Positions 2,661 to 34,865 of a stretch of 40,799 nt of DNA are shown piece after piece. The DNA comes from a virus. Made by a program: the position numbers and the translations under genes. The notes below the pieces were generated by a model, which saw only the letters and a list, made by a program, of their open reading frames with translations, ran no database searches and was not told the origin of the DNA. The stretch lies in the IMG/VR virus record IMGVR_UViG_3300042691_023248, positions 1 through 40,799 of that record, one strand, 5' to 3'. The stretch's first letter is position 1, and each line of letters begins with the position of its first letter.

Positions 2661-2692
2661 GAAAATGGGGGTCATTGATCCCCATTTTTTAT
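2661..2692. terminator. Terminator hairpin between converging sheath and endonuclease genes
   Basis: AAAATGGGG (2662-2670) pairs with CCCCATTTT (2680-2688) around a 9-nt loop, followed by a T-run on the plus strand. It lies between convergent genes and overlaps the stop codon of the minus-strand endonuclease (2672-2674). The minus strand also ends in a T-rich run, so it may work both ways. Confidence 0.85.
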
Positions 2693-4207
2693 TTCTAATT
2701 CAAATTTTAAAGACCCACAATCCCAAATTCGATCAAAATTTTTAATCTGCATTATTTCCCATTCAGTTTGGTCATTACTATAACCTTCTTTAATTAAAAC
2801 ATCTTTACGGTAGTTAAATCTATGATGTCTCTTTAAAAAATGTTTCGTATCTAAATACCAATAATTTGGTGTTGTTAGTTTAATGAAATTAAAACCATTT
2901 TTAGAATATACTGTATTATTTGGGTTTATACCGGACCATCTAGCATCAGCAAATGTAATGATTTTTTTTACTTTCATTTTTTTTACAAAAAAATTGAGAA
3001 GTTTTGAAAACCCACCTACAATATTTAATCCCAGTTTGGTACAGAACCTAACTAATTCATATTCATTTTCATCCTTTTTAGTATTACCAAGAACTTTTCT
3101 TTTATTAGCAAATGTCATCACACCAACTAACTCATTTTGATAAAACAATCCATATCTAAATTTATCAACAGTATCACTTTGTATATGATTTATATTGATA
3201 AACTCTTTGGATTCTTTTTTTGTAATTTCTTTTAATTCACACTTTCTAGCGTAAATAGATTTGTTAAGTCCAATTAAATTTGAAATTCTTGAAATAACAA
3301 TTTCTTTTTTTTGTAGGATTTCATCTTCAAATATCTGTAATAACTTTATCCCTTTTTGATCTGCAAGTTTTGTTTTATTTATATGGTAAACTTTGTCCTT
3401 ACGGCCATTTATTTCGGAATGGTAGTAATGACCATTTATTTCAATCCCAATGTTGTGTTCCGGTAAATAAATATCAATTTCACCACCACATAATAATTTT
3501 CTAACATTATCAATATGTGAAATATTATTTTTATTTAAAAAATCTTTTAAAACAAGTTCTAATGATGAATTTTTATCGATTGGGTTACATTTCCTACAAA
3601 TTGGGGTTTTACCCGAACCTAATAATGTACTTGTAAATATATGGTTACACTTCAAACATTTAAAATTATATGATAATGAAGTATTTTTATTTTTATTGAC
3701 AGTATAGTCATCAAGTAGTTCTAAATCATATCCATTAAGTTTTGGTAATAAATTTTTTAAATGTTTATCTCTAAAAGTTTTTTTTAATTTATCAACAAAT
3801 TCTTTTTTGTGCATAGGGAACTCAACACCATATTTTTTTAAAAAAATTTCTTTCTTCTTGTTTTGGAACTCTTGAGTTTTAAATATACTATCAACACCGT
3901 ATTTTTTAATCATTGATTTTTTACTTTGGTTAATTCGATGATTAATGTTTTTATCCATATTATTCCAGATTTTACGACATTCATCTGAACAAATTTTTTT
4001 TTGATGTTTAATTCTTTCATTAAAAATTTTATTACATACCAAACAAGTCCTATCTTCTCTAACCGATAGGTCTTTTTGTTTACCAATAGTTTTATTTTTT
4101 TTTGCATTAGCAAAATAACAAGTCCTACCACAAAATTTCTTGTCCCTATGTTTGAAATCTGCGGCAAATAATTTTTTACATTCTCGACATTCTAATTCAA
4201 TCTTCAT
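2672..4207 (-). CDS. Homing endonuclease, Vsr/EDxHD-like, with N-terminal zinc fingers
   Basis: Probable free-standing homing endonuclease of 511 residues. I chose the ATG at 4205-4207 because the protein then begins MKIELECRECKKLF, directly at a Cys-pair finger; an upstream in-frame start would add 21 residues lacking that character and would run through the regulatory repeat. The N-terminal region has several CxxC pairs, followed by KKYGV-type segments. At residues ~240-262 the motif GGEIDIYLP then IGIEINGHYYHSE resembles the catalytic core of Vsr-like endonucleases (family of I-Bth0305I). A conserved C-terminal half (YARKC, RFCTKLGLNIVGGFSKLL, PNYWYLD, WDCGSLKFELEI) is shared with the gene at 5826-7409. 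It is the only gene on the minus strand and sits between the sheath and the HAD gene, as expected for a mobile insertion. The exact nuclease class is inferred from motifs. Confidence 0.8.
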   Translation of the reverse strand: MKIELECRECKKLFAADFKHRDKKFCGRTCYFANAKKNKTIGKQKDLSVREDRTCLVCNKIFNERIKHQKKICSDECRKIWNNMDKNINHRINQSKKSMIKKYGVDSIFKTQEFQNKKKEIFLKKYGVEFPMHKKEFVDKLKKTFRDKHLKNLLPKLNGYDLELLDDYTVNKNKNTSLSYNFKCLKCNHIFTSTLLGSGKTPICRKCNPIDKNSSLELVLKDFLNKNNISHIDNVRKLLCGGEIDIYLPEHNIGIEINGHYYHSEINGRKDKVYHINKTKLADQKGIKLLQIFEDEILQKKEIVISRISNLIGLNKSIYARKCELKEITKKESKEFININHIQSDTVDKFRYGLFYQNELVGVMTFANKRKVLGNTKKDENEYELVRFCTKLGLNIVGGFSKLLNFFVKKMKVKKIITFADARWSGINPNNTVYSKNGFNFIKLTTPNYWYLDTKHFLKRHHRFNYRKDVLIKEGYSNDQTEWEIMQIKNFDRIWDCGSLKFELEIKNGDQ

Positions 4208-4289
4208 TGGAAAAATATATATGTTAATAACCAAGTGGTCTCTACAATATAAATATAATATAAATTTCAAAAATACAAAATATTTTCCA
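4205..4289 (-). promoter_or_regulatory. Promoter-like motif flanked by an inverted repeat ahead of the minus-strand endonuclease
   Basis: Read on the minus strand, TGGAAAATAT (4289-4280) and ATATTTTTCCA (4218-4208) can pair with one bulge, and the second arm directly abuts the ATG. The loop holds ATATTTATA (4256-4248), the same element found upstream of other genes here, in the gene's own orientation. On the plus strand the same site reads TATAAATA, the T4 late-promoter consensus, so its direction is ambiguous. This is the weakest of the four endonuclease hairpins. Confidence 0.4.
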
Positions 4290-4304
4290 TTTTTTATTTA
4301 CGAT

Positions 4305-4313
4305 ATATTTATT
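4305..4313 (+). promoter_or_regulatory. ATATTTATT element before the HAD gene
   Basis: ATATTTATT lies only 3 nt upstream of the ATG at 4317. If it is a -10-type element the mRNA would be nearly leaderless. No Shine-Dalgarno sequence is seen. Confidence 0.35.
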
Positions 4314-4316
4314 ATT

Positions 4317-5204
4317 ATGAATTACAAAAATTTAGTAAAACGAATTGTTGAAGAAGTCCAAAGTAATGATTACGGATTAAAATATTACGCATTTGATTGG
4401 GATGATAATTTAATGAAAATGCCAACTGAAATTATTTTACTTAATGAAGATGGTAATGAGGTTGGTATGTCAACAGAAGATTTTGCCGAATATAGGACTG
4501 AAATTGGAAAAGAACCATTTAATTATAATGGAGAAATGATTGTTGGTTTTGCAGAAGATCCTTTTAGATATTTTAGAACATTAGGTGATAAAAAATTTAT
4601 GAAGGACATTGAAACGGCTCCACTTGTTAGAGGACCCTGGAATGATTTTGTGGAAGCGATAAATTCCGGATCAATATTTTCAATTATCACAGCAAGAGGA
4701 CATCATCCAAATACACTTAAAAAGGGTGTATATAAATTAATTAAAATGGGTAGGGGTGGTCTTAATATGAATAAATTAATTAATCGTCTAATGGAATATA
4801 GAAGACAAATGGGACTTAAATCAGTAAATGATCCGGAATGGTTAATTAAAGATTATCTTGATAGATGTAGATTTTATCCTGTATCATATGGTGAGGGCTC
4901 GGCCACAAATCCTGAAGAAGGAAAAATTAAAGCGATGGAAGAATTTATAAGTTATGTGAAAAAGATTTCATTAAGACTTCAAAAGAAAAATTACAAATTC
5001 ATAAATGATGTTAGTAACAACTTTGTTCCTTTTACTCCAATGGTTGGTTTTTCAGATGATGATATAAGAAATGTAATATCTATGAAAAAACACTTTGAAA
5101 AGAAAGATGATAATATTTTAAAAACTTATCATACAAAAGATGATGAGAAATATATGTTTGAACAATTAGTTAATAGGATTTTAAAGAAAATTAAATCAAA
5201 GTAA
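4317..5204 (+). CDS. HAD-fold phosphatase-like protein
   Basis: 295 residues, haloacid-dehalogenase-like. Motif I is FDWDDN (D27 as probable nucleophile, D29 as general acid/base); motif II is SIITARG near residue 120; the acidic motif IV is GFSDDDIRN near residue 240. These are the residues expected for a Mg-dependent phosphohydrolase. The ATG at 4317 is preferred over a longer in-frame opening from 4140, because the extra 59 residues would be coded across the promoter and start region of the divergent endonuclease. It sits between sheath and tube genes and shows no tail-like sequence, so it may act on nucleotides, RNA ends or a protein; the substrate cannot be told. No signal peptide or membrane segment is present. 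Confidence 0.8.
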   Translation: MNYKNLVKRIVEEVQSNDYGLKYYAFDWDDNLMKMPTEIILLNEDGNEVGMSTEDFAEYRTEIGKEPFNYNGEMIVGFAEDPFRYFRTLGDKKFMKDIETAPLVRGPWNDFVEAINSGSIFSIITARGHHPNTLKKGVYKLIKMGRGGLNMNKLINRLMEYRRQMGLKSVNDPEWLIKDYLDRCRFYPVSYGEGSATNPEEGKIKAMEEFISYVKKISLRLQKKNYKFINDVSNNFVPFTPMVGFSDDDIRNVISMKKHFEKKDDNILKTYHTKDDEKYMFEQLVNRILKKIKSK

Positions 5205-5227: not shown

Positions 5228-5235
5228 ATATTTAT
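5228..5235 (+). promoter_or_regulatory. ATATTTAT element upstream of the tail tube gene
   Basis: ATATTTAT followed by AATAAA, 41 nt before the tube ATG. It matches the element seen before other structural genes. The flanks are pure A/T, so chance occurrence is possible. Confidence 0.4.
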
Positions 5236-5276: not shown

Positions 5277-5765
5277 ATGGCTGATTTGTTAATGAAAATG
5301 CCTATACCTTACGAACCGAAAAGGGAGAACCGTTGGATTTTGAGATTTCCATCGTCATTAGGAATAAATGAGTGGTATGTTGAGAGTACCTCAAGACCTA
5401 AATTAAAAATTGCAACAACTGAAATACCATTTTTAAATACCTCAACTTATGTTGCTGGTAGATTTAACTGGGAAGAAATTTCAGTTAAGTTTAGAGACCC
5501 AATTGGTCCGTCAGCGTCACAAGCGGTTATGGAATGGATTCGTTTATGTGCTGAGTCCGTAACTGGTCGTATGGGTTATGCCGCTGGATATAAGAAAAAT
5601 GTTGATCTTGAAATGCTTGACCCAACCGGTGTTGTTGTTGAGAAGTGGATATTAGAAGGGGCTTTCTTAACTGGATATGATGGAGGTTCATTGGATTATT
5701 CAAGCGATAAAATCGCTGGAATTTCTTCAAACATCCGTATGGATCGTTGTATATTAGTTTATTAA
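5277..5765 (+). CDS. Tail tube protein (gp19-like)
   Basis: 162 residues, close to the T4 gp19 length (163). Tube subunits stack as rings inside the sheath and form the DNA channel. The sequence shows the family pattern: MPIPYEPKRENRWILRFP at the start, IPFLNTSTYVAGRFNWEEISVKFRDP in the middle, and a closing segment with ILEGAFLTGYDGGSLDYSS. The start is clear: an ATG preceded by an A-rich leader without Shine-Dalgarno. Neighbours are the sheath (upstream, separated by two other genes) and the gp26-like chaperone (downstream, separated by an endonuclease), so the order sheath, tube, chaperone, tape measure is kept despite the insertions. Confidence 0.93.
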   Translation: MADLLMKMPIPYEPKRENRWILRFPSSLGINEWYVESTSRPKLKIATTEIPFLNTSTYVAGRFNWEEISVKFRDPIGPSASQAVMEWIRLCAESVTGRMGYAAGYKKNVDLEMLDPTGVVVEKWILEGAFLTGYDGGSLDYSSDKIAGISSNIRMDRCILVY

Positions 5766-5795
5766 TTTTTTACATACCCTTTACAACCAAAATTT

Positions 5796-5833
5796 AAATC
5801 CATATATTTATTATAAAATAGATATATGGATTT
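5796..5833 (+). promoter_or_regulatory. 17-bp hairpin with embedded promoter-like motif; start codon in the stem
   Basis: Bases 5796-5812 pair with 5817-5833 around an ATAA loop, with one G-T pair (5808/5821) and no mismatch. The left arm contains ATATTTATT (5804-5812); the right arm contains the ATG (5826-5828) of the endonuclease. A transcript from upstream would fold the start codon into the stem. A transcript started about 6-8 nt after the motif would lack the left arm and leave the start free. This is the arrangement known for T4 I-TevI, e and soc; the function here is inferred. Confidence 0.7.
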
Positions 5834-7409
5834 TTCTTTTTTTACAACTGATAATAAATCTGGTTATAAAACCAATGAAAAATGGTTAGAAAAAAATCAA
5901 CCGGAACTCTATAATAAAATTATTAGTAATTCAAATTCAACACAACCAGATATAAATTTCAAAGAAAAAATATATTTTTATTTTCATAACTTAACCGAAA
6001 GACCAAAATGTTTAAAATGTGGTACCGAAGTTAAATTTAGAAATAGATTTGATAAACCATATGGTGATTTCTGTTCATTAACTTGTGCTAACAACAATAA
6101 GGAAGAACTAGTTAAACGACAAAAAGAAACATTCAATAAAAAATACGGTGTTGATTTCTATCCACAACATAAGGAATTTATTTTCAAACAGAAAAAAACA
6201 AAATTGTTAAATTATGGTAATGAAAATTACAATAATACAGAAAAAAATAAAAAAACAAGATTGGAAAAATATGGTAATGAAAATTACAATAACATAGAAA
6301 AACAAAAACAAACTTGTTTAGTTAAATATGGTGAAGACAATTATAGTAAATCAAACAATTACCAAAATAAAATTACAAAAAAATTTAAGGAACTATACCC
6401 GGATATTTTATTCAATGAGATTAAAAAAAATTCGGTAATAATAGATTGTCAAAAATGTAGGACATCTTGTGAATTAACAAAACAATTACTATATGAAAGA
6501 TATAAAAGAAAATATGATGTTTGTTTAAATTGTAACCCACTCGGATTTAAACAAAGAAGTGGTTATGAAGATGAGTTATCAAATTTTTTAGATCAACTAA
6601 ATGTTAAATATTTAACAAATTATAAATTACCAAAAACAAAATTAGAAATTGATATTTTTATTCCGGACCACAATTTAGGGATTGAATTTAATGGACTATA
6701 TTGGCATAATGAATTATTTAAAACACCAACATATCATTTAGAAAAAACAAATAAATGTAATGAAAATGGTATTAGTTTAATTCACATTTTTGAAGACGAA
6801 TGGGTATATAATTGTGAAATTGTTAAATCAGTTATTAAGAACAAATTAAATATTTCTAGTGGTAGTGTTTACGCTAGAAAATGTGTTATAAAAGAAGTTA
6901 ATCCACTCACATCAAAAAAATTCCTTGAAGACAATCATATACAAGGTAATGTTAACTCAAAAGTAAGATTGGGATTATTTTATAATAATGAACTTATATC
7001 TTTAATGACCTTTTCCAAAGGTAGAATTATTATGGGTGGAAAAAAAGATGAGTGGGAATTAAATAGATTTTGTAATAAATTAAACACCAATGTTGTTGGT
7101 GCCGCCTCAAGGTTGTTGAAAAATTTTATAAAAAATTACAACCCTAATAAAATTATTTCATATTCTGATGTTAGAATTTTTGATGGACAAATGTACGGTA
7201 AATTAAATTTTAAAAAAATATTACAATCAAAACCAAATTATTGGTATGTTATTGGAAATAAAAGACATTATAGATTCAATTTTAACAAATCAAATTTAAT
7301 TAAAAAAGGTTATAACCCAAGTAAAACCGAAAAAGAAATTATGTTTGAAAGGAAAATTTATAGAATATATGATTGTGGAAATGTTAGGTGGGAATTAACT
7401 ATTGATTAA
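5826..7409 (+). CDS. Homing endonuclease, Vsr/EDxHD-like, with 19-residue repeats
   Basis: 527 residues, homologous to the minus-strand endonuclease at 2672-4207 over the second half. An N-terminal zinc-finger-like region (CLKCGTEV, then CSLTCAN) is followed by NKKYGVDFY and three 19-residue repeats built on KYGNENYNN (DNA about 6213-6370), a probable DNA-reading array. The catalytic-core-like motif LEIDIFIP then LGIEFNGLYWHNE is at residues ~273-297, followed by LIHIFEDEW. The C-terminal half has YARKC, WELNRFCNKLNTNVVGAASR, PNYWYV and YDCGNVRWEL. It is inserted between tail tube and tail chaperone. The start is the ATG in the hairpin at 5796-5833, so translation is probably limited to transcripts beginning inside that hairpin. 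Codon use is like its neighbours. Confidence 0.82.
   Translation: MDFSFFTTDNKSGYKTNEKWLEKNQPELYNKIISNSNSTQPDINFKEKIYFYFHNLTERPKCLKCGTEVKFRNRFDKPYGDFCSLTCANNNKEELVKRQKETFNKKYGVDFYPQHKEFIFKQKKTKLLNYGNENYNNTEKNKKTRLEKYGNENYNNIEKQKQTCLVKYGEDNYSKSNNYQNKITKKFKELYPDILFNEIKKNSVIIDCQKCRTSCELTKQLLYERYKRKYDVCLNCNPLGFKQRSGYEDELSNFLDQLNVKYLTNYKLPKTKLEIDIFIPDHNLGIEFNGLYWHNELFKTPTYHLEKTNKCNENGISLIHIFEDEWVYNCEIVKSVIKNKLNISSGSVYARKCVIKEVNPLTSKKFLEDNHIQGNVNSKVRLGLFYNNELISLMTFSKGRIIMGGKKDEWELNRFCNKLNTNVVGAASRLLKNFIKNYNPNKIISYSDVRIFDGQMYGKLNFKKILQSKPNYWYVIGNKRHYRFNFNKSNLIKKGYNPSKTEKEIMFERKIYRIYDCGNVRWELTID
6213..6383 (+). repeat. Three 57-bp tandem repeats in the endonuclease gene
   Basis: TATGGTAATGAAAATTACAA begins at 6213 and again at 6270; a diverged third copy (TATGGTGAAGACAATTATAG) begins at 6327. 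The spacing of 57 nt gives a 19-residue protein unit (KYGNENYNN core). Confidence 0.75.
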
Positions 7410-10375: not shown

Positions 10376-13300
10376 ATGTCAGATAGTTTTTTGTCATTTA
10401 CATCATCAGCATCATTTAGAAATTCTTTAATTGCTAGAAATTTAGCACCATATAGTGTACAAGGAACTTTTTCACCACAAGTAAGTAATATTAATTATGA
10501 AACAAATTTATCTGTTGCAAATGTTATTGATTCACCAAACAATCTTGTAAGTACAAACACACAAGCAAATGGTTTATATCCATTAAATGAGTATGGACCA
10601 GATGGTGGTTTTGGACAACCAATAAACTTAGCTGGGCCACCATTACCGGTTGATTCAAATAAAGGGCCGTATGACCCAAATGATACTGTAATTGATTTAG
10701 TTAATGAATTTTTTATTGATGCGGCTTACGTACAAAATAATTATGGACCAGAAGGTGGGTTTACAAATTTAGTAACAATTACAGATATTGTAACAAATGG
10801 AAAAATTTCGTTACCGTATTGGGACCCACAAGTATTTGTTCCATCATCTTATAACCCATATGAAATTCTATCAAGCTCAAATCCAAATGGAAGTAATGGT
10901 AGTTTATCACAAGATTCATATATTATACAATTAGGATCAAGTGTCTTAAAAAACTTATTATTACAAAATCAAAATTTTTACACACAACAAAGTTTACAGA
11001 ATCAAAACTCAATAAACTTTAGTATAACAGTTGATGATGTAAACGATAATTATTTAAGTCGATTAGGTGGGTCATATACTCCGTTTTCTCCAATACCCGG
11101 TGATTATTTTTTAGACGGTACTACAAGTAGAACAACCGATACAGTTGGTGAAGCAATAAATTTAATCGCCGGTAGAAGTACTTTATTTGGTGGTGCGTTA
11201 AATGGAGGATTAACAAGAGCTGTTAATCAATCACAATTATTTTTAGAAAATACCAATGACGGACAAAAAGGTATTATGTTTGCAAATATTTCTAAAAACA
11301 TATACAGACCGGCTTATGGTGGTTCACTTTTGGCGGGCATTGGTACAAATTTAATAACAACAGGAATAAATAGTTTAATTGACGGCTTTGGTGTACAATT
11401 ACCAGGTGCGTATTATGTTGGTTCCACTTTATCAGAACCCGCATATTTGGAATCACCTATTGATGCTGTACCAACAGATGTTTTTGGTAGAGACACCCAA
11501 GCAATTGTTTTTGGTCCGGATGTATTAGGTAACGAATATGAAAAAAATCAAGAAAAAATTAATTTTGGGTTAAAAGCTAAATCATATACAAATAGTGGAA
11601 GTATTGATGGTGAGTTTATTTGGACATCACCAAAATATAAAGATAATGCCGGTTTTTATGTATCACCTGGTGGGGCTCCAACATCACTTGACGATACATT
11701 TAACTTTGTTGAAGCAAACTACAATAAAAATTTATCAACAAATATTGATTTTAAACCCGGATCAATATTAGATGATACACAAAGGTTAATTAATTCTGCG
11801 GATAGTCTACAAGGTGAGGCTAGATTAAAACATGTTGGAAACGCGATAAACCAAGTTTCAAAAGTTTTTAACGACGGTTATAAAGAAATAACAAAAGGAT
11901 CACAAGTATTATCATACAAAGATCAAACAGATGGTTCGGAAGCTGGTATTGAATATTGTAGAGTTTTTACAAAAGATACACCATATTTAACATATGGTGA
12001 TTTACAAAAAACAGATGGTATAACAAAATCTGGTAGAAAATTTACATATTCAGTTTTTGATAGTACATATAATTTGAATATCGTACCAATGAAAGGTACA
12101 GATTCAACAAATATTATTGACAATAGGGTTAAAAAATACATGTTCTCAATTGAAAATTTAGCTTGGAGAACATCCGATAGACCGGGTTTTACATATGATG
12201 ATTTACCAAATTGTGAAAAAGGTCCTAATGGTGGTAGAATTATGTGGTTTCCACCCTATGATTTGACTTTTAGCGACAATTCAAAACCAGATTTTAACGG
12301 GACAAGTTTTCTTGGGAGACCAGAACCAATCTATACATATAAAAACACATCAAGAAGTGGAAGTTTAAAATGGAAAATCATTGTTGATAATCCGGGTTCA
12401 TTAAATACAATAATTGAAAAACAATTAGCTAACATACCAAAAGAAAGAATTGATTCAATAGTTGATTCATTTTTTGCTGGTTGTACAAAATATGATATTT
12501 ACGAATTAGGTATAAAATTTAATACAATACCAACAAGAGATTTATATACATATCAAGAAATTTTAAACAACCCAAGATTAACAGAAGAGGAACTAACAGA
12601 AGTATTAAAAGAAATACCGGTTGAAAACACAACAAACGGTTCACCAGAAAGTCCTGTTACGGCAACAAATCAAGGTGGTAATAATAACGCTGAAGCTAGT
12701 AATACGTTTGAAGATCCTTTTAAAAAATTAGAAGGATTGGGATTTTATTTTGCTAATAACCAACCAACTAATGTTGGTTCAACTACATCACAAATAGATT
12801 ATGAAGGATATTTTACAACATATAAAGATGTAGTATATCCAAACACTAAAGATTTAGCACCTCAAGTAGTTAAAGTTGGTGATAGTACTTTTAAAAAAGA
12901 AGACATACCAACTTTATGGGATAAAGTCATTAATGGTAATTTTGAAACATTAAAAAAAGAATTTTTATCTGCTATGGAGGAAGTTATTATTAAAAGAAAT
13001 GGTATTGTTAATTTAACTTTAGAGGGTACAAGTTCAGCTGTTGATGATGCGAATTATAACCAAGAATTATCAGAAAGAAGAATTGATTCTGTTATACAAT
13101 GGATTGAAAGACAAGTTTTTTCGGATGGTACAACCTATAAATCAAAAATACCATCTAAAATAACAATAACTAAAGTTCCACTTGGTGAAAAAGTAATAAT
13201 ACCAAAAGGTGAAGTTAGTTTTAGTGAAATTAATTGTGGTGTAATACCTATTGACGCCGCAACAAACCAAGCAACAAGTAATTCACAATTTAATTCATTA

Positions 13301-15277
13301 CCGGCTATGGCCTGTAGGAGAGTTATAATAAAAGCAGCAAAAGCTACTGTTTTACCAATGCCACAACAACAACCAACCAAACAACCAGTTAAAGAAACAC
13401 CACCAGCAACAGTAGACCAAAAAGTTGAACCGGTACCTTTAAAACCAATATCACAAGTTGACGTACAACAAAAAATTAAAGAAGGTATTTCAAAAAAAGT
13501 ATTAAGACAATTATTTTCAGAGTGTGATTATTTCCAAGTAATAAAGGAAAGTAATCCTATGATATACGATTCTTTTAAAGAAAAAATTAAATATTTTAGT
13601 CCGGCTTTTCACTCAATGACACCGGAAGGATTAAACTCAAGATTAACATTTCTTAATCAATGTACAAGACCTGGACAAACAATACCAGTAATTGGACCAG
13701 ACGGACGACCAAAATATAATGACGCACTAAACACTTCATTTGGTGCACCACCAGTTTTGGTGTTGAGAATTGGTGATTTTTACCACACTAAAATTATACC
13801 AACAAGTTTAGATATTTCATATGAACCGTTACTTTATGACTTAAATCCGGAAGGAATCGGTATTCAACCGATGATTGCAAATATTACAATGGCATTTAAT
13901 ATTATTGGTGGTATGGGACTTAAAGAACCAATTGATCAATTACAAAATGCACTTTCGTTCAATTATTATGCAAACACAGAAGTGTATGATGAAAGAGCAA
14001 CAGCAACTGAAGATACATCAGCTAAAGATAAGTATGTTGTTGAAAAAATATTAAATGCTCAACAACCAGTAAAAAGTAATACTATTGACAATCAAATACC
14101 GGTAAAAGGTGGTGATACAATTGGTAGTATATTAACAACAATTCTATCAGATAATGGTAATATTGAAAGTGGTGAAATAGAATATAATTCTTTATTTAAA
14201 GAACTTTCAGATAATACAAATAAACATTTCAAAACTATTAATAATCAATTAAGAACAATTCAGAACACCTCAAATTATGGAATGTTACAATTGGTTGGTT
14301 TTAAAAGAAAATATTCAGAAGGTGATTTATTTTTCTATAGTGTAAATAAATTTCCGGTTAAAATTTATGGAAAACCCGAAGATGTTGAAAATAGGGTAGA
14401 TTCACTAATAGGTAATGTTGTTGGTGATATTAAAGAGTATAAAGACCCAATAATGTCAAAAATAAAAAACGTTCCGAACATACCAAGTTCAGCATTTAGA
14501 CAAGTTAGCGACAAATTAAAGTCATTAACAAAAAATAAAAAAAACGAATTAAATCAAATTGTTATTGAACCAATTAATGAAATTACAAAATCACAAGAAA
14601 ACTATATACAAACTTTTAAAAAAGTTGATGCTGTTTTATATAGTACTAGTGGAACAACAAAAAGTGGTGTTGATGGCAAAAAATTGGAAACCGGAGATGT
14701 TAAAGTTTTTGATTTAACCGAAATAAGTGGTACAAGTGTTTTTAATGGTATGGTAGAACAGTATAAAAATAAAGTTGGGGATTCACTAAATAAATTTGAT
14801 GAACTTTTAATTTCTAAAAACATATCCAAAAAAGATAATTATCTTGAAGAAGAAACATCATTTGTACCAATTACAAATAAATTAATTGTTGATGAAAATT
14901 GTAGATTTTATATGGTATATGCAAATACATTTGTTAATGACGAAAAATATCAAACATTTTTTAATGAATTAGTTAATTTGGATTTAGTTAAGAAAAATAC
15001 AATTTTAGAAAATGAACTTAAAAAAGTATTAGGTGATTTAAAAGTTTTATTTAAAGAAGAGTTTGACGCTGAAATTAAAAATTTTGACGACTATGAAAAA
15101 AGTTCAGAATATCAAATTTATGACAAATTTGAACTTGATGCTATTGATACAAAAATGAATTATACTACAGATGTAACTGTTGATAAAAATGAAAAAAGAA
15201 GTATTATGAAAAGTGTGTATAGGACCGGAAATGAAAATTTTGATGATAAATTTAATAAAAAAGTTAAATTTAATTAA
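10376..15277 (+). CDS. Large baseplate/tube-end protein with an OmpA-like module
   Basis: 1633 residues, probably a baseplate or tube-cap protein. Two separated regions look like tube-fold domains: WFPPYDL then FLGRPEPIYTYKNTSRSGS (residues ~625-680), and FGAPPVLVLRIGDFYHTKI then SLDISYEPLLYDLNPEGIG (residues ~1120-1180). Between them, at residues ~874-983, NLTLEGTSS, NQELSERRIDSVIQWI and CRRVIIKA fit the OmpA-like peptidoglycan-binding pattern (N-x2-LS-x2-R-x3-V). The N-terminal third is Asn/Ser/Gly-rich without a recognised fold; the C-terminal 400 residues are Lys/Glu-rich and partly coiled-coil-like. It lies between the tape measure and the LysM/hub genes, where T4-type phages keep hub and tube-initiator proteins (gp27/gp48/gp54). 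Family assignment is by position and pattern only. Confidence 0.6.
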   Translation: MSDSFLSFTSSASFRNSLIARNLAPYSVQGTFSPQVSNINYETNLSVANVIDSPNNLVSTNTQANGLYPLNEYGPDGGFGQPINLAGPPLPVDSNKGPYDPNDTVIDLVNEFFIDAAYVQNNYGPEGGFTNLVTITDIVTNGKISLPYWDPQVFVPSSYNPYEILSSSNPNGSNGSLSQDSYIIQLGSSVLKNLLLQNQNFYTQQSLQNQNSINFSITVDDVNDNYLSRLGGSYTPFSPIPGDYFLDGTTSRTTDTVGEAINLIAGRSTLFGGALNGGLTRAVNQSQLFLENTNDGQKGIMFANISKNIYRPAYGGSLLAGIGTNLITTGINSLIDGFGVQLPGAYYVGSTLSEPAYLESPIDAVPTDVFGRDTQAIVFGPDVLGNEYEKNQEKINFGLKAKSYTNSGSIDGEFIWTSPKYKDNAGFYVSPGGAPTSLDDTFNFVEANYNKNLSTNIDFKPGSILDDTQRLINSADSLQGEARLKHVGNAINQVSKVFNDGYKEITKGSQVLSYKDQTDGSEAGIEYCRVFTKDTPYLTYGDLQKTDGITKSGRKFTYSVFDSTYNLNIVPMKGTDSTNIIDNRVKKYMFSIENLAWRTSDRPGFTYDDLPNCEKGPNGGRIMWFPPYDLTFSDNSKPDFNGTSFLGRPEPIYTYKNTSRSGSLKWKIIVDNPGSLNTIIEKQLANIPKERIDSIVDSFFAGCTKYDIYELGIKFNTIPTRDLYTYQEILNNPRLTEEELTEVLKEIPVENTTNGSPESPVTATNQGGNNNAEASNTFEDPFKKLEGLGFYFANNQPTNVGSTTSQIDYEGYFTTYKDVVYPNTKDLAPQVVKVGDSTFKKEDIPTLWDKVINGNFETLKKEFLSAMEEVIIKRNGIVNLTLEGTSSAVDDANYNQELSERRIDSVIQWIERQVFSDGTTYKSKIPSKITITKVPLGEKVIIPKGEVSFSEINCGVIPIDAATNQATSNSQFNSLPAMACRRVIIKAAKATVLPMPQQQPTKQPVKETPPATVDQKVEPVPLKPISQVDVQQKIKEGISKKVLRQLFSECDYFQVIKESNPMIYDSFKEKIKYFSPAFHSMTPEGLNSRLTFLNQCTRPGQTIPVIGPDGRPKYNDALNTSFGAPPVLVLRIGDFYHTKIIPTSLDISYEPLLYDLNPEGIGIQPMIANITMAFNIIGGMGLKEPIDQLQNALSFNYYANTEVYDERATATEDTSAKDKYVVEKILNAQQPVKSNTIDNQIPVKGGDTIGSILTTILSDNGNIESGEIEYNSLFKELSDNTNKHFKTINNQLRTIQNTSNYGMLQLVGFKRKYSEGDLFFYSVNKFPVKIYGKPEDVENRVDSLIGNVVGDIKEYKDPIMSKIKNVPNIPSSAFRQVSDKLKSLTKNKKNELNQIVIEPINEITKSQENYIQTFKKVDAVLYSTSGTTKSGVDGKKLETGDVKVFDLTEISGTSVFNGMVEQYKNKVGDSLNKFDELLISKNISKKDNYLEEETSFVPITNKLIVDENCRFYMVYANTFVNDEKYQTFFNELVNLDLVKKNTILENELKKVLGDLKVLFKEEFDAEIKNFDDYEKSSEYQIYDKFELDAIDTKMNYTTDVTVDKNEKRSIMKSVYRTGNENFDDKFNKKVKFN

Positions 15278-29742: not shown

Positions 29743-31602
29743 ATGGATATTTCACAAAAAATATTAAGTGATATTACGGTGTATATGAAATACGCTAAAT
29801 TTGTCCCGGAATTAAATAGAAGGGAGACGTGGGAAGAATTGGTGACAAGAAACAAAGAAATGCACCAGAAAAAATACCCACACATTAAAGACGAAATTGA
29901 AAACGTCTATAAAATGGTATATGATAAGAAAATCTTACCATCAATGAGATCATTACAATTTGGTGGTAAACCAATTGAGATTTCACCAAACAGAGTTTAT
30001 AACTGTGCCTATTTACCAATAGACCACACAGACGCATTTTCTGAAACAATGTTTTTGTTATTAGGTGGAACCGGTGTTGGATTTTCAGTTCAAAAACATC
30101 ATGTAGATAAACTACCGGAAATTAAAAAACCAAACCCAACAAGGACAAGAAGATATTTAATTGGTGACTCTATTGAAGGATGGGCTGACGCGATTAAAGT
30201 TTTAATTGAGTCCTATATGGGTACAAAATCTTCAACACCGGTGTTTGATTTTTCAGACATTCGTCAAAAGGGAGCCCTTCTTGTTACATCAGGTGGAAAA
30301 GCACCAGGACCTCAACCATTAAAAGATTGTATTCATAACATTACAAAGGTGTTTGAAAACAAAAATGATAGTGAGAAATTAACACCAATTGAAACACACG
30401 ACATCGTTTGTCATATTGCTGATGCTGTACTTGCCGGTGGTATTCGTAGAGCTGCTTTAATTTCATTATTTTCGGCTGATGATGAGGAAATGATTTCTTG
30501 TAAATCCGGAAACTGGTGGGAACAAAACCCACAAAGAGGTAGAGCAAATAATTCTGCTGTTCTATTAAGACATAAAGTAACACAAGAGTATTTTATGGAT
30601 CTTTGGAAAAGAATTGAATTATCTGGAGCCGGAGAACCTGGAATCTATTTATCAAACGATAAAGATTGGGGAACAAATCCTTGTTGTGAGATTGCACTTC
30701 GTCCTTATCAATTCTGTAACTTATGTGAAGTGAATGCTTCAGATTTAGAATCTCAAGAAGATTTTGAAAATAGAGTTAGAGGAGCGGCTTTTATTGGAAC
30801 ACTACAAGCTGGTTATACCGATTTCCATTATTTAAGAGATGTTTGGAAAAGAACAACAGAAAAAGATGCACTTATTGGTGTTGGAATGACAGGAATTGGG
30901 TCCGGAGTTGTGTTAGGTTACGATATGAAAGCGGCCGCAAACGCTGTTAAAGAAGAAAATGAAAGAGTTGCTACACTTATTGGTATTAACAAATCGGCAA
31001 GAACAACAACTGTTAAACCATCTGGTACTTCATCATTAGTATTGGGAACATCATCTGGTATTCACGCTTGGCATAATGATTATTATTTAAGAAGAATCCG
31101 TGTTGGGAAGAATGAAGCAATATATTCATATCTTGCAATCAATCACCCGGAACTTGTTGAAGATGAATATTTTAGACCACACGATACTGCGGTAATCACA
31201 ATTCCACAAAAAGCACCAGAAGGATCAATTTTAAGATACGAATCCGTATTCCAAATGTTGGAACGAGTTAAAAAGGTATCACAAGAGTGGGTTAAATCTG
31301 GACACAGAACAGGTCAAAACACACACAATGTATCAGCAACAGTTTCAATCAAAGAAGATGAATGGGAGTTAGTTGGTGATTGGATGTGGAAAAATAGAAA
31401 GTTCTATAACGGATTATCAGTTTTACCCTTCAACGGAGGTACTTATACTCAGGCACCTTTTACCGATTGTACTAAAGAAGAGTATGAAAAATTAGTTAGA
31501 TCATTAACCAATATTGACTTAACTAAAGTAATTGAATTACAAGATAATACTGACTTGAGCGGTGAAATAGCATGCGGAGCTTCGGGATGTGAAATTGTTT
31601 AA
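29743..31602 (+). CDS. nrdJ: Class II (adenosylcobalamin-dependent) ribonucleotide reductase
   Basis: 619 residues, a monomeric-type reductase that makes deoxynucleotides for phage DNA. The pattern matches the B12-dependent triphosphate reductase type: the buried Cys in VYNCAYLPI (residue ~88), GGTGVGFSVQ, GGIRRAALISLF, NPCCEIAL then FCNLCEVN (residues ~311-330, with the thiyl-radical Cys-x-Glu pair), VKPSGTSSLVLGTSSGIHAW, and a C-terminal redox pair CGASGC four residues from the end. No small-subunit (radical) gene is present, consistent with class II. It is a little short for the family (often 700 or more). It is followed by a strong terminator and preceded by the helicase after 22 nt. Confidence 0.9.
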   Translation: MDISQKILSDITVYMKYAKFVPELNRRETWEELVTRNKEMHQKKYPHIKDEIENVYKMVYDKKILPSMRSLQFGGKPIEISPNRVYNCAYLPIDHTDAFSETMFLLLGGTGVGFSVQKHHVDKLPEIKKPNPTRTRRYLIGDSIEGWADAIKVLIESYMGTKSSTPVFDFSDIRQKGALLVTSGGKAPGPQPLKDCIHNITKVFENKNDSEKLTPIETHDIVCHIADAVLAGGIRRAALISLFSADDEEMISCKSGNWWEQNPQRGRANNSAVLLRHKVTQEYFMDLWKRIELSGAGEPGIYLSNDKDWGTNPCCEIALRPYQFCNLCEVNASDLESQEDFENRVRGAAFIGTLQAGYTDFHYLRDVWKRTTEKDALIGVGMTGIGSGVVLGYDMKAAANAVKEENERVATLIGINKSARTTTVKPSGTSSLVLGTSSGIHAWHNDYYLRRIRVGKNEAIYSYLAINHPELVEDEYFRPHDTAVITIPQKAPEGSILRYESVFQMLERVKKVSQEWVKSGHRTGQNTHNVSATVSIKEDEWELVGDWMWKNRKFYNGLSVLPFNGGTYTQAPFTDCTKEEYEKLVRSLTNIDLTKVIELQDNTDLSGEIACGASGCEIV

Positions 31603-31607
31603 TTATT

Positions 31608-31642
31608 AAAAAGTAAGGGTTTGAAAAAATCCTTACTTTTTT
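31608..31642 (+). terminator. Rho-independent terminator after the reductase
   Basis: AAAAAGTAAGG (31608-31618) pairs with CCTTACTTTTT (31631-31641), loop of 12 nt, ending in a T-run. It stands directly before the HNH gene's own control region. Confidence 0.92.
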
Positions 31643-31643
31643 C

Positions 31644-31686
31644 ATTTCACAAGATATTTATTGTAATAAAGAAATTGTTGTGAAAT
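31644..31686 (+). promoter_or_regulatory. Inverted repeat with promoter-like motif ahead of the HNH gene
   Basis: ATTTCACAA (31644-31652) pairs perfectly with TTGTGAAAT (31678-31686), whose last base is directly before the ATG at 31687. Inside lies ATATTTATT (31654-31662), itself part of a small hairpin TTTATT/AATAAA (31657-31670). A read-through mRNA would bury the region before the start codon; an mRNA started after the motif would lose the left arm. Confidence 0.6.
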
Positions 31687-32295
31687 ATGAAAAAAATTGA
31701 AATGATTGGAAAAAACTTCGGTGATTTAAAAGTAATTGAGGAAAGATTAAGAAACAAAAACGGTCATATAAAATATCTATGTGAATGTGTTTGTGGAAAT
31801 AAAACTGAAGTATTTGGAACACATTTAAGACGTGGAAATAGTACTTCTTGTGGTTGTAAAAATAAAATAAACAAAAATGGTGGTATAACTGGTGACTTGT
31901 GGTATAACATAACAAGTCATAAAACATCAAAAAGGGCTAGTAGAAAAAACCTTGAATTTGGTTTAACAAAAGAATATATTTATAATCTATTCATTGAACA
32001 AAATTCTAAATGTGCCTTGTCCGGAATTGTAATAACTTTACCAAAAAGATGGGACGATAAATCTTATACCGCATCATTAGATAGAATTGATAGTAAGAAA
32101 GGATATGTAATAGGTAATGTCCAATGGTTACATAAGCATATAAATGTTATGAAAAATATTTTTGAACAAGATATGTTCATTTTTTTATGTAATCAAATAA
32201 GTAATAATCACAAGATATGTGATTTTGATATTGAAAAAATTGATAAATTTAAATGGGGATTAAATACAAAACATTATGAAAATAACCTGGGGTAA
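31687..32295 (+). CDS. HNH homing endonuclease (1)
   Basis: 202 residues. The N-terminal part (GKNFGDLKVIEE, then CECVCGN and STSCGC) is a zinc-finger-like DNA-binding region. The HNH core is CALSGI, then YTASLDRIDSKKGYVIGNVQW and LHKHINVMKN (residues ~108-160), with the conserved D-R-I, N-V and H-K-x-x-N positions of HNH enzymes. It is similar along its length to the HNH protein at 32639-33244. It lies between the reductase and a short ORF, each with its own signals, as expected for a free-standing homing gene. The end overlaps a 26-codon ORF. Confidence 0.85.
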   Translation: MKKIEMIGKNFGDLKVIEERLRNKNGHIKYLCECVCGNKTEVFGTHLRRGNSTSCGCKNKINKNGGITGDLWYNITSHKTSKRASRKNLEFGLTKEYIYNLFIEQNSKCALSGIVITLPKRWDDKSYTASLDRIDSKKGYVIGNVQWLHKHINVMKNIFEQDMFIFLCNQISNNHKICDFDIEKIDKFKWGLNTKHYENNLG

Positions 32296-32587: not shown

Positions 32588-32630
32588 TGTTGTGGTTTAT
32601 ATTTATATAAATAAATAATAAACCACAACA
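32588..32630 (+). promoter_or_regulatory. 19-bp hairpin with embedded promoter-like motif ahead of the second HNH gene
   Basis: TGTTGTGGTTTA (32588-32599) pairs with TAAACCACAACA (32619-32630), then after one bulged A (32618) TATTTAT (32600-32606) pairs with ATAAATA (32611-32617) around an ATAA loop. ATATTTATA (32599-32607) is in the left arm and TATAAATA (32606-32613), the T4 late-promoter consensus, spans the tip. The stem ends 8 nt before the ATG at 32639. It may also act as a terminator for the preceding gene. Confidence 0.65.
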
Positions 32631-32638
32631 TTTTAATT

Positions 32639-33244
32639 ATGCACTTTAATACTAAAAATTTAATTGGTCTGTCTTTTAATAAATTAACACCGATTAAAGT
32701 TGTTGAAAAACCAAAAGATAATAATAGTAAAAGAAGAGGAACTTTTTGGTTATGTCTATGTGAATGTGGAAATGAAAAAATAGTAATGTCATCAGATTTA
32801 ACACGAGGTGAAACTAAGTCGTGTGGGTGCAGTAATAAATTTGAAAATTCACATAACTATAAAGGTTTTGGAAAATTAGCACAGTCTAAATTTTCACATA
32901 TAGAATGGTCTGCAAAAAAAAGAGGACTTGAATTTTTAGTAACAAAAGAATTTCTTTGGGATTTATTTTTAAAACAAGATGGTAAATGTTACTACACACA
33001 ATTGGATATTGATTTAAATGTTAGAAATAAAACAATGACGGCATCTGTTGATAGAATCAATTCTAATCTTGGTTACACTGAAGGTAATGTTGTTTGGGTT
33101 CATAAAGATGTTAATATTATGAAAAATAAGTTTACCAAAGAATATTTTTTGATGTTATGTCAAAAAGTAACTGAAACAAATCATACCTACAAACCTTTAT
33201 ATGAGAAGGGTGGTACAAACTTAAAAGAATCCTTACGAAAGTAG
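32639..33244 (+). CDS. HNH homing endonuclease (2)
   Basis: 201 residues, related to the HNH protein at 31687-32295. It opens with IGLSFNKLTPIKVVEKP, then LCLCECGNEK and TKSCGCSNK (zinc-finger-like). The HNH core is CYYTQLDID, TASVDRINSNLGYTEGNVVW and VHKDVNIMKNKF (residues ~115-165). The C-terminal codons are part of a terminator hairpin, so gene and terminator form a compact unit, as often in mobile endonuclease genes. It separates the DUF5522-like gene from the gp25 baseplate gene. Confidence 0.85.
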   Translation: MHFNTKNLIGLSFNKLTPIKVVEKPKDNNSKRRGTFWLCLCECGNEKIVMSSDLTRGETKSCGCSNKFENSHNYKGFGKLAQSKFSHIEWSAKKRGLEFLVTKEFLWDLFLKQDGKCYYTQLDIDLNVRNKTMTASVDRINSNLGYTEGNVVWVHKDVNIMKNKFTKEYFLMLCQKVTETNHTYKPLYEKGGTNLKESLRK

Positions 33245-33755: not shown

Positions 33756-34865
33756 ATGAGTAATAAAAAAATTTCACAATTACAAAATGTTACAGCTTCT
33801 GGTGTAACACCATATGATTTACTTGCAATAGTAAATTATGATGTTTATTCCGGAACAACAAAAAATATAAGAATTCCTGATTTAAAAAGTTATATTAATT
33901 CAGGTAATACAGACACGTATGTAACAGGTTATACATATCAAGATAATACATTTACAATTAGTGATAGTTCTGGAAATACATTTAGTACAACAATAGATAC
34001 TGTAACTGGACTTACGGTAAATGGTATGCTAAGTGCCACAACACTAACTGTAATTAGTGGTGCCTCATTTAGTCAAATACCAGTAAGTACCACTGGTAAT
34101 ACATTAAGTGTTGACGAAAATGGTTTTTTAGTTATTGCAACAGGTGAGACAAAGTCTGGGACAGTTGCTGCTGAAGATGTTAAGGCAACTTATATAGAAT
34201 CTGTAGAAACGAGATCACAAATTATTTCAGCACAAACTATAAATACTTATAGTTTTTCAGCTCAAACCGCTAGTCTTAGTCGTATAAAATCATTCTCACC
34301 ATTAAATATAAATGATGGTGATGAAGGGTCAGTTTATTTTGGGTCAACAAGTGGTGTAACTGTTGATGTATTAAATAGTAGAATTGGTATTGGAACACAA
34401 ACCCCAACCAAAGAGTTAGATATTATCGGTGATACACAAATTAGTGGTTCATTATCAGCAACAACAATAAGTGGTACAACATTATATGGTGACGGTTCAA
34501 ATTTAACTGGTATTGAATTACCATATAAAGTATATGCTGCATTATTAACTCAAACAGGAACCGCTGATCCCGTTGTAACAATAGTTGAAAATACTCTTGG
34601 GACTGTTACAATTAATAGAGATAGTAATGGTAGATATTCAGTAAATTCCTCAAGTTTGTTCACATCAAATAAAACAATTGTTTACATAAACACCATAACA
34701 AGCCAAGCTGGCCCATATGGTGGTTATTCAAGTATTACCGCTGGTTCATCAAGTGTTTTTTGGATTGACACCACAAAAGTGATTGGTAGTGGGGGTTTGA
34801 TCCCAGGAACAGGAACAGATAATGTTTTATATAATACTTCATTTGAAATAAAAGTTTATAACTAA
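33756..34865 (+). CDS. Fibre-like structural protein
   Basis: 369 residues, rich in Thr, Ser, Gly and short beta repeats. It opens with MSNKKISQLQNVTAS, typical of phage appendage proteins, and has the segment SRIGIGTQTPTKELDIIGDT followed by SGSLSATTISGTTLYGDGSN and LTGI (residues ~210-250), a motif common in phage fibres and repeated beta shafts. The last ~110 residues look like a separate globular domain that could be the tip or the baseplate anchor. It is placed between gp25 and gp6, so it may be a short baseplate fibre rather than a long tail fibre. No chaperone or peptidase motif is seen. Confidence 0.65.
   Translation: MSNKKISQLQNVTASGVTPYDLLAIVNYDVYSGTTKNIRIPDLKSYINSGNTDTYVTGYTYQDNTFTISDSSGNTFSTTIDTVTGLTVNGMLSATTLTVISGASFSQIPVSTTGNTLSVDENGFLVIATGETKSGTVAAEDVKATYIESVETRSQIISAQTINTYSFSAQTASLSRIKSFSPLNINDGDEGSVYFGSTSGVTVDVLNSRIGIGTQTPTKELDIIGDTQISGSLSATTISGTTLYGDGSNLTGIELPYKVYAALLTQTGTADPVVTIVENTLGTVTINRDSNGRYSVNSSSLFTSNKTIVYINTITSQAGPYGGYSSITAGSSSVFWIDTTKVIGSGGLIPGTGTDNVLYNTSFEIKVYN

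Follow-up and report, generated by a model that had tools for sequence, protein, structure and literature searches.

What does a hairpin do that encloses the start codon of a homing endonuclease gene in one arm and a promoter-like element in the other, directly behind a structural gene? This question is raised by HEG2 in the window, that is, the whole 40,799-nt stretch analyzed. The DNA, taken from IMG/VR, is a fragment with 30% GC that derives from a T4-like phage; in it the tail sheath gene is followed by HEG1 on the minus strand, a 354-aa ORF listed at 4140-5204, the tail tube gene, HEG2, and the baseplate hub gene (Table 1). No near-identical phage records were found and a plasmid search gave no match, while a PHROG search at E ≤ 0.001 returned none for two large tail-region proteins (10376-15277, 1633 aa; 33756-34865, 369 aa). 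From sequence comparison and folding, we consider it likely that the hairpin acts as an insulating expression switch for HEG2 and most likely also as a replacement for the tail-tube terminator.

Table 1. Positions of the hairpin, promoter-like, terminator-like, and gene features discussed in the text.
Feature	Position	Strand	Evidence or remark
-35-like box TTTACA, 24 nt upstream of the left-arm motif	5780..5785	+	
Left arm, HEG2 hairpin	5796..5812	+	Folding, homologue comparison
Promoter-like ATATTTATT within left arm	5804..5812	+	Motif enrichment, homologous leaders
Right arm, HEG2 hairpin	5817..5833	+	Contains ATG 5826-5828 and codons 2-3
U-rich run, codons 2-7 (D-F-S-F-F), terminator-like tail	5831..5844	+	Directly 3′ of stem
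Tail tube protein gene (T4 gp19-like), upstream neighbour of HEG2	5277..5765	+	phrog_4542, E 3.8e-24
Promoter-like ATATTTAT of the tail tube gene	5228..5235	+	Sequence, motif enrichment
HEG2, free-standing homing endonuclease, DUF7487	5826..7409	+	phrog_3339, E 1.6e-120; Pfam PF24308
HEG1, superfamily of HEG2, antisense to neighbours	2672..4207	-	ATATTTAT about 4249-4256, 41-nt leader, no start lock
Terminator-like hairpin behind ribonucleotide reductase gene, separate from HEG3 lock	31608..31641	+	
HEG3 start lock, TTTCACAA / TTGTGAAA stem	31643..31687	+	ATATTTATT 31654-31662 in loop; ATG 31687 abuts right arm
HEG3, HNH/endonuclease VII-like	31687..32295	+	phrog_3322, E 5.1e-22
HEG4 leader hairpin, 13-bp perfect stem	32588..32630	+	ATATTTAT 32599-32606 closes left arm
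HEG4, HNH/endonuclease VII-like	32639..33244	+	phrog_3322, E 8.1e-26

The sequence-only reading of this DNA had paired the two arms around an ATAA loop and placed the element in the left arm and the ATG in the right, and all of this was borne out. The 17-bp stem and loop, 38 nt in total, fold stably as RNA with a minimum free energy of −16.7 kcal/mol (z = −6.3), none of 200 dinucleotide shuffles was as stable, and the hairpin is among the longest short-range inverted repeats of the window; an Rfam search gave no match. Overlooked by that reading, the right arm leads straight into the U-rich stretch GGAUUUUUCUUUUUUU, with eight T in the 10 nt 3′ of the stem. On the 5′ side of the hairpin (5776-5795) lies the block ACCCTTTACAACC, conserved at nearly all tail-tube-site endonuclease loci, which contains the -35-like TTKACA and whose remainder is without explanation.

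The element had been described as standing before many genes, and its enrichment was indeed strand-specific: ATATTTAT was the commonest 8-mer in 380 dereplicated non-endonuclease leaders of relatives, with 72 sense against 8 antisense copies at a mean position of −28. It precedes 26 genes in the near-complete relative G001 (159,868 bp), compared with seven for the antisense control, and occurs 31 times in sense and four times in antisense orientation in the distant Flavobacterium phage immuto, where copies lie just upstream of the annotated terminase, tail sheath, tail tube, baseplate, hub, and tail fibre genes and none was seen in the annotation immediately 5′ of ssDNA-binding, recombinase, helicase, or reductase genes. 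Ranking first among the sense-strand 8-mers before ordinary genes of the group, ATATTTAT is promoter-like, and a late-type promoter is suggested; no open-access literature on this element in Flavobacterium phages was found. The leaders of the group, like those of immuto, are A-rich and poor in Shine-Dalgarno sequences, with SD-like tetramers in only 1-6% of the group's leaders, which points to a Bacteroidota host. At most tail-tube-site endonuclease loci a TTGACA or TTTACA box was also found, and the promoters of HEG2 and the VSR-like genes have such a TTKACA box 24 nt upstream, as do only about 6% of ordinary motif genes. Because the tail-tube site conserves this box and other genes seldom have it, the timing of the HEG2/VSR promoter should not be assumed.

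To what extent the start is locked was quantified by a release energy, defined as the cost of opening −12 to +8 in the read-through RNA minus that in an RNA begun just past the motif. This measure was used because any long helix over the start was too loose a discriminator, passed by 114 of 562 ordinary genes and separating endonucleases from others only mildly (odds ratio 2.8). With leaders dereplicated at 80% identity, a release of ≥6 kcal/mol was reached by 29/52 endonuclease genes and 8/177 others (P = 1e-15, a value that overstates independence because family members are still related after dereplication), so that, by this measure, equally strong palindromes are not the rule at non-endonuclease starts. 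The median releases were 9.3 kcal/mol for HEG2 (n = 19), 14.3 for HEG3 (n = 7), 5.3 for HEG4 (n = 8), and 13.9 for the Vsr-like genes (n = 6), compared with 1.0 for HEG1 (n = 12) and 2.0 for other genes (n = 177). The result held wherever the start was assumed 2-10 nt past the motif; shuffling of the left flank weakened the lock in HEG2, HEG3, and VSR-like genes. The HEG4 lock is the weakest and covers the leader, not the AUG, its right arm stopping 8 nt short of the ATG at 32639. By computation, the HEG2 hairpin thus sequesters the translation start in upstream-initiated RNA, and the earlier proposal that RNA starting inside the hairpin releases it is supported by release energies far above those of ordinary motif genes.

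The lock also followed gene orientation. Endonuclease genes co-directional with the upstream gene had a median release of 13.4 kcal/mol (n = 21) and mostly possessed the lock, whereas those facing away, like HEG1, had a median of 2.1 (n = 9) and mostly lacked it (P = 5e-4, with the same reservation on relatedness). This dependence is what a block of read-through predicts, and it is partly confounded with the tail-tube site.

These data suggest how the hairpin could operate. RNA polymerase reading through from the tail tube gene would make the whole hairpin, in which the AUG and the region just upstream would be buried, and initiation at ATATTTATT inside the left arm would yield an RNA whose start is open because it lacks that arm. 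Access to the start region would matter since the group is without Shine-Dalgarno sequences. HEG2 is then probably translatable only from messages begun inside the hairpin; the endonuclease would be made from its own promoter alone, its amount uncoupled from that of a strongly expressed structural gene, and read-through RNA would be terminated or, failing that, untranslatable.

The sequence-only reading had instead invoked the T4 logic of I-TevI, e, and soc, in which the start is hidden in early read-through RNA and becomes accessible in RNA from a late promoter inside the hairpin. The geometry does equal that of the T4 cases (PMC2988022, PMC3014915), and an early/late switch is plausible for HEG3, whose upstream reductase gene in the window is without the motif, and would fit the reductase-site endonucleases. 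HEG2, however, probably does not lie behind early or middle genes. The gene read through is the tail tube, which carries the same ATATTTAT, so that read-through and internal RNAs probably belong to one class and the switch finds no support at this locus; the TTKACA box, rare among ordinary motif genes, likewise keeps the timing from being inferred. We therefore regard an early/late switch as unlikely, and insulation from read-through fits HEG2 better.

The start hairpin was present in 29/29 examined close homologues directly 3′ of the tail-tube gene. Across 32 distinct homologous leaders, located by means of a degenerate motif anchor in which one base could vary, the left-arm ATATTTA was invariant, while its right-arm partners drifted opposite U mostly from A to G, so that wobble pairs are retained, and coding changes from GAT to GAC or GAA were compensated in the left arm. 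Among 26 distinct arm pairs, 93.4% of cells were paired, five cells were changed on both sides compared with 0.4 in shuffles, and the covariation exceeded that in all 500 shuffles and in every slid register; the slid registers and the asymmetry of the arms carry the weight here, because related sequences can beat shuffles without any structure. The U-run is interrupted in some homologues (L092, L094), and the lock was absent in more divergent homologues at the same site (L125 and L126, 42% identity) and in copies directly behind another endonuclease (L117, L141). One HEG2 homologue (L114, 3001) has ATT in place of the hairpin ATG, with one G-C pair broken, a decayed or non-standard start.

The same substitutions bear on whether the palindrome acts as DNA, for example as an operator bound by the endonuclease, in autorepression like that of I-TevI, or by a regulator. 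Although the I-TevI operator overlaps its late promoter (PMC2988022), the A/G changes opposite U preserve RNA wobble pairing and break DNA symmetry, and the arm sequences differ among families while the layout stays constant, which makes a DNA-level role highly improbable.

The right arm with its U-rich tail has the look of a terminator, and the occupancy of this site is informative. Among endonuclease-free relatives, 39/40 have a hairpin and U-run terminator at the same place after the tail-tube stop, and in 29/29 examined endonuclease loci the start hairpin is there with essentially no other terminator. Since it is the sole hairpin left where the gene-free relatives terminate, the start hairpin probably also ends the tail-tube RNA at this site, and the U-run of this putative terminator is probably supplied by the first HEG2 codons (M-D-F-S-F-F). 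The hairpin and these codons would most likely replace the terminator lost when the endonuclease entered. The stem has two G-C pairs, below the ≥3 of the intrinsic (Rho-independent) terminator criterion, and a standard terminator scan did not call it. In the closest endonuclease-free relative (L003), whose tail-tube protein is identical, the terminator has a sequence of its own, GTCCTC...GGGGAUUUUUUU, which is also found just 5′ of the hub gene.

Would a plain terminator suffice, one that only ends the tail tube transcript and holds the ATG and the ATATTTAT match by chance? The terminators of the gene-free relatives and the U-run directly behind the stem agree with this, as does the persistence of hairpin and U-run after endonuclease loss in L022 and L049-L053; in L050 the ATG is lost and the pairing kept. 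(The sequences at L022 4490-4560 and behind the tail tube in L049-L053 are fossil starts, in which the ATATTTAT motif or the ATG has decayed.) A terminator alone, however, does not account for an ATATTTA that is invariant while its pairing partner varies, nor for locks elsewhere that have a separate upstream terminator and no U-run behind them (HEG3; L360, L386, L327, L329, L367). At the reductase site, too, ATGs lie within hairpins of 11 bp (L165) and about 22 bp (L150) without U-runs. A mere terminator is thus quite improbable, even more so than the early/late switch in our estimate, and a switch that insulates HEG2 and probably terminates as well remains the preferred reading.

How general is this layout? 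The sequence-only reading had assigned it to all four endonuclease genes in the window, which holds for HEG2, HEG3 (31687), and HEG4 (32639), that is, for three of the four endonuclease families; HEG1 was rejected as a fourth case, as its ATG at 4207 (minus strand) lies 41 nt past ATATTTAT and shows no extra occlusion. The listed TTG start of HEG1 at 4270 (minus strand) is probably wrong, the homologues favouring ATG 4207 (MKIEL...), and many relatives have a terminator upstream of their HEG1 homologue. A general rule for mobile genes, as had been proposed, therefore stands insofar as the layout recurs in several endonuclease families and fails at HEG1. A second endonuclease family at the tail-tube site (L083, L034, L141, L248-L305) shows the same layout with AAATTCCCATATATTTATATGTATGGGAATTTTT. 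An IMG/VR search with a pattern modelled on HEG2 found at least 25 ORFs with a strong hairpin start, some matches being duplicates; endonucleases make up 19/25 of the matches listed, two of them GIY-YIG and several HNH. Genes of other kinds have the layout as well, since a head maturation protease and structural-looking proteins are among the six remaining matches listed. The head maturation protease gene of L307 (minus strand) has a promoter-in-hairpin start behind a separate terminator, and the layout is therefore not confined to mobile genes.

Because phrog_3339 weakly matches both HEG2 and the VSR-like genes, the two are not treated as fully unrelated here; at the tail-tube site their leaders may descend from one ancestor, which makes them less than fully independent. 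In L083, L118, L141, L248, and L262 the tail tube gene has endonucleases on both flanks, the one behind it co-directional and the one before it divergent, and the divergent ones are mostly without a start hairpin. Endonucleases have landed repeatedly at the 3′ end of the phage ribonucleotide reductase gene (29743-32295 in the window, L165, L150), comparable to the position of mobE near nrdA/nrdB in T4-like phages. In its widest form, our proposal is that a single 38-nt hairpin would serve as promoter, start-codon lock, and terminator of the structural gene, with the first endonuclease codons as U-run, and that endonucleases of several unrelated folds in uncultivated T4-like phages acquired this portable insulator, either through common descent or through convergence; we give this an even chance. 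The layout appears to be a general means by which selfish genes stay quiet beside host genes. It yields a testable rule for how such genes enter essential operons without disturbance and makes them simple to find; for a large group of uncultivated phages it also indicates a likely promoter element.

Endonuclease genes regulated by hairpins are known from T4 (I-TevI, I-TevII, I-TevIII, and segB) and from Aeh1 (mobE) (PMC2988022). As in HEG2, a free-standing or intron endonuclease has its start sequestered in upstream-initiated RNA, and the promoter element, here a putative one, is positioned such that transcripts begun at it are without the 5′ arm. The nuclease families differ, however, as does the element (ATATTTAT here and TATAAATA there); HEG2 has no Shine-Dalgarno sequence and the AUG itself lies in the stem, and its upstream neighbour is a structural gene with the same element, the hairpin probably being a terminator too. 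In T4 e, read-through RNA likewise keeps the start closed and a late promoter lying in the 5′ arm opens it, and soc has been named alongside it (PMC3014915); these genes share the start lock and serve phage lysis or structure, whereas HEG2 is a mobile endonuclease. T4 mobE and segF resemble HEG2 in having an intrinsic terminator within the 5′ end of the coding region (PMC2988022), but there terminator and lock are not described as one hairpin, whereas here promoter, start, and terminator stem would all lie in one hairpin, a union of which we found no report in the open-access literature. Finally, the T4 cases are a handful of genes, whereas here at least three types of nuclease (phrog_3339/Vsr-like, HNH/endonuclease VII-like, and GIY-YIG) follow the same logic at several genomic sites, in phages without Shine-Dalgarno sequences and with a promoter element different from that of T4, and the lock follows gene orientation as expected of a read-through block.
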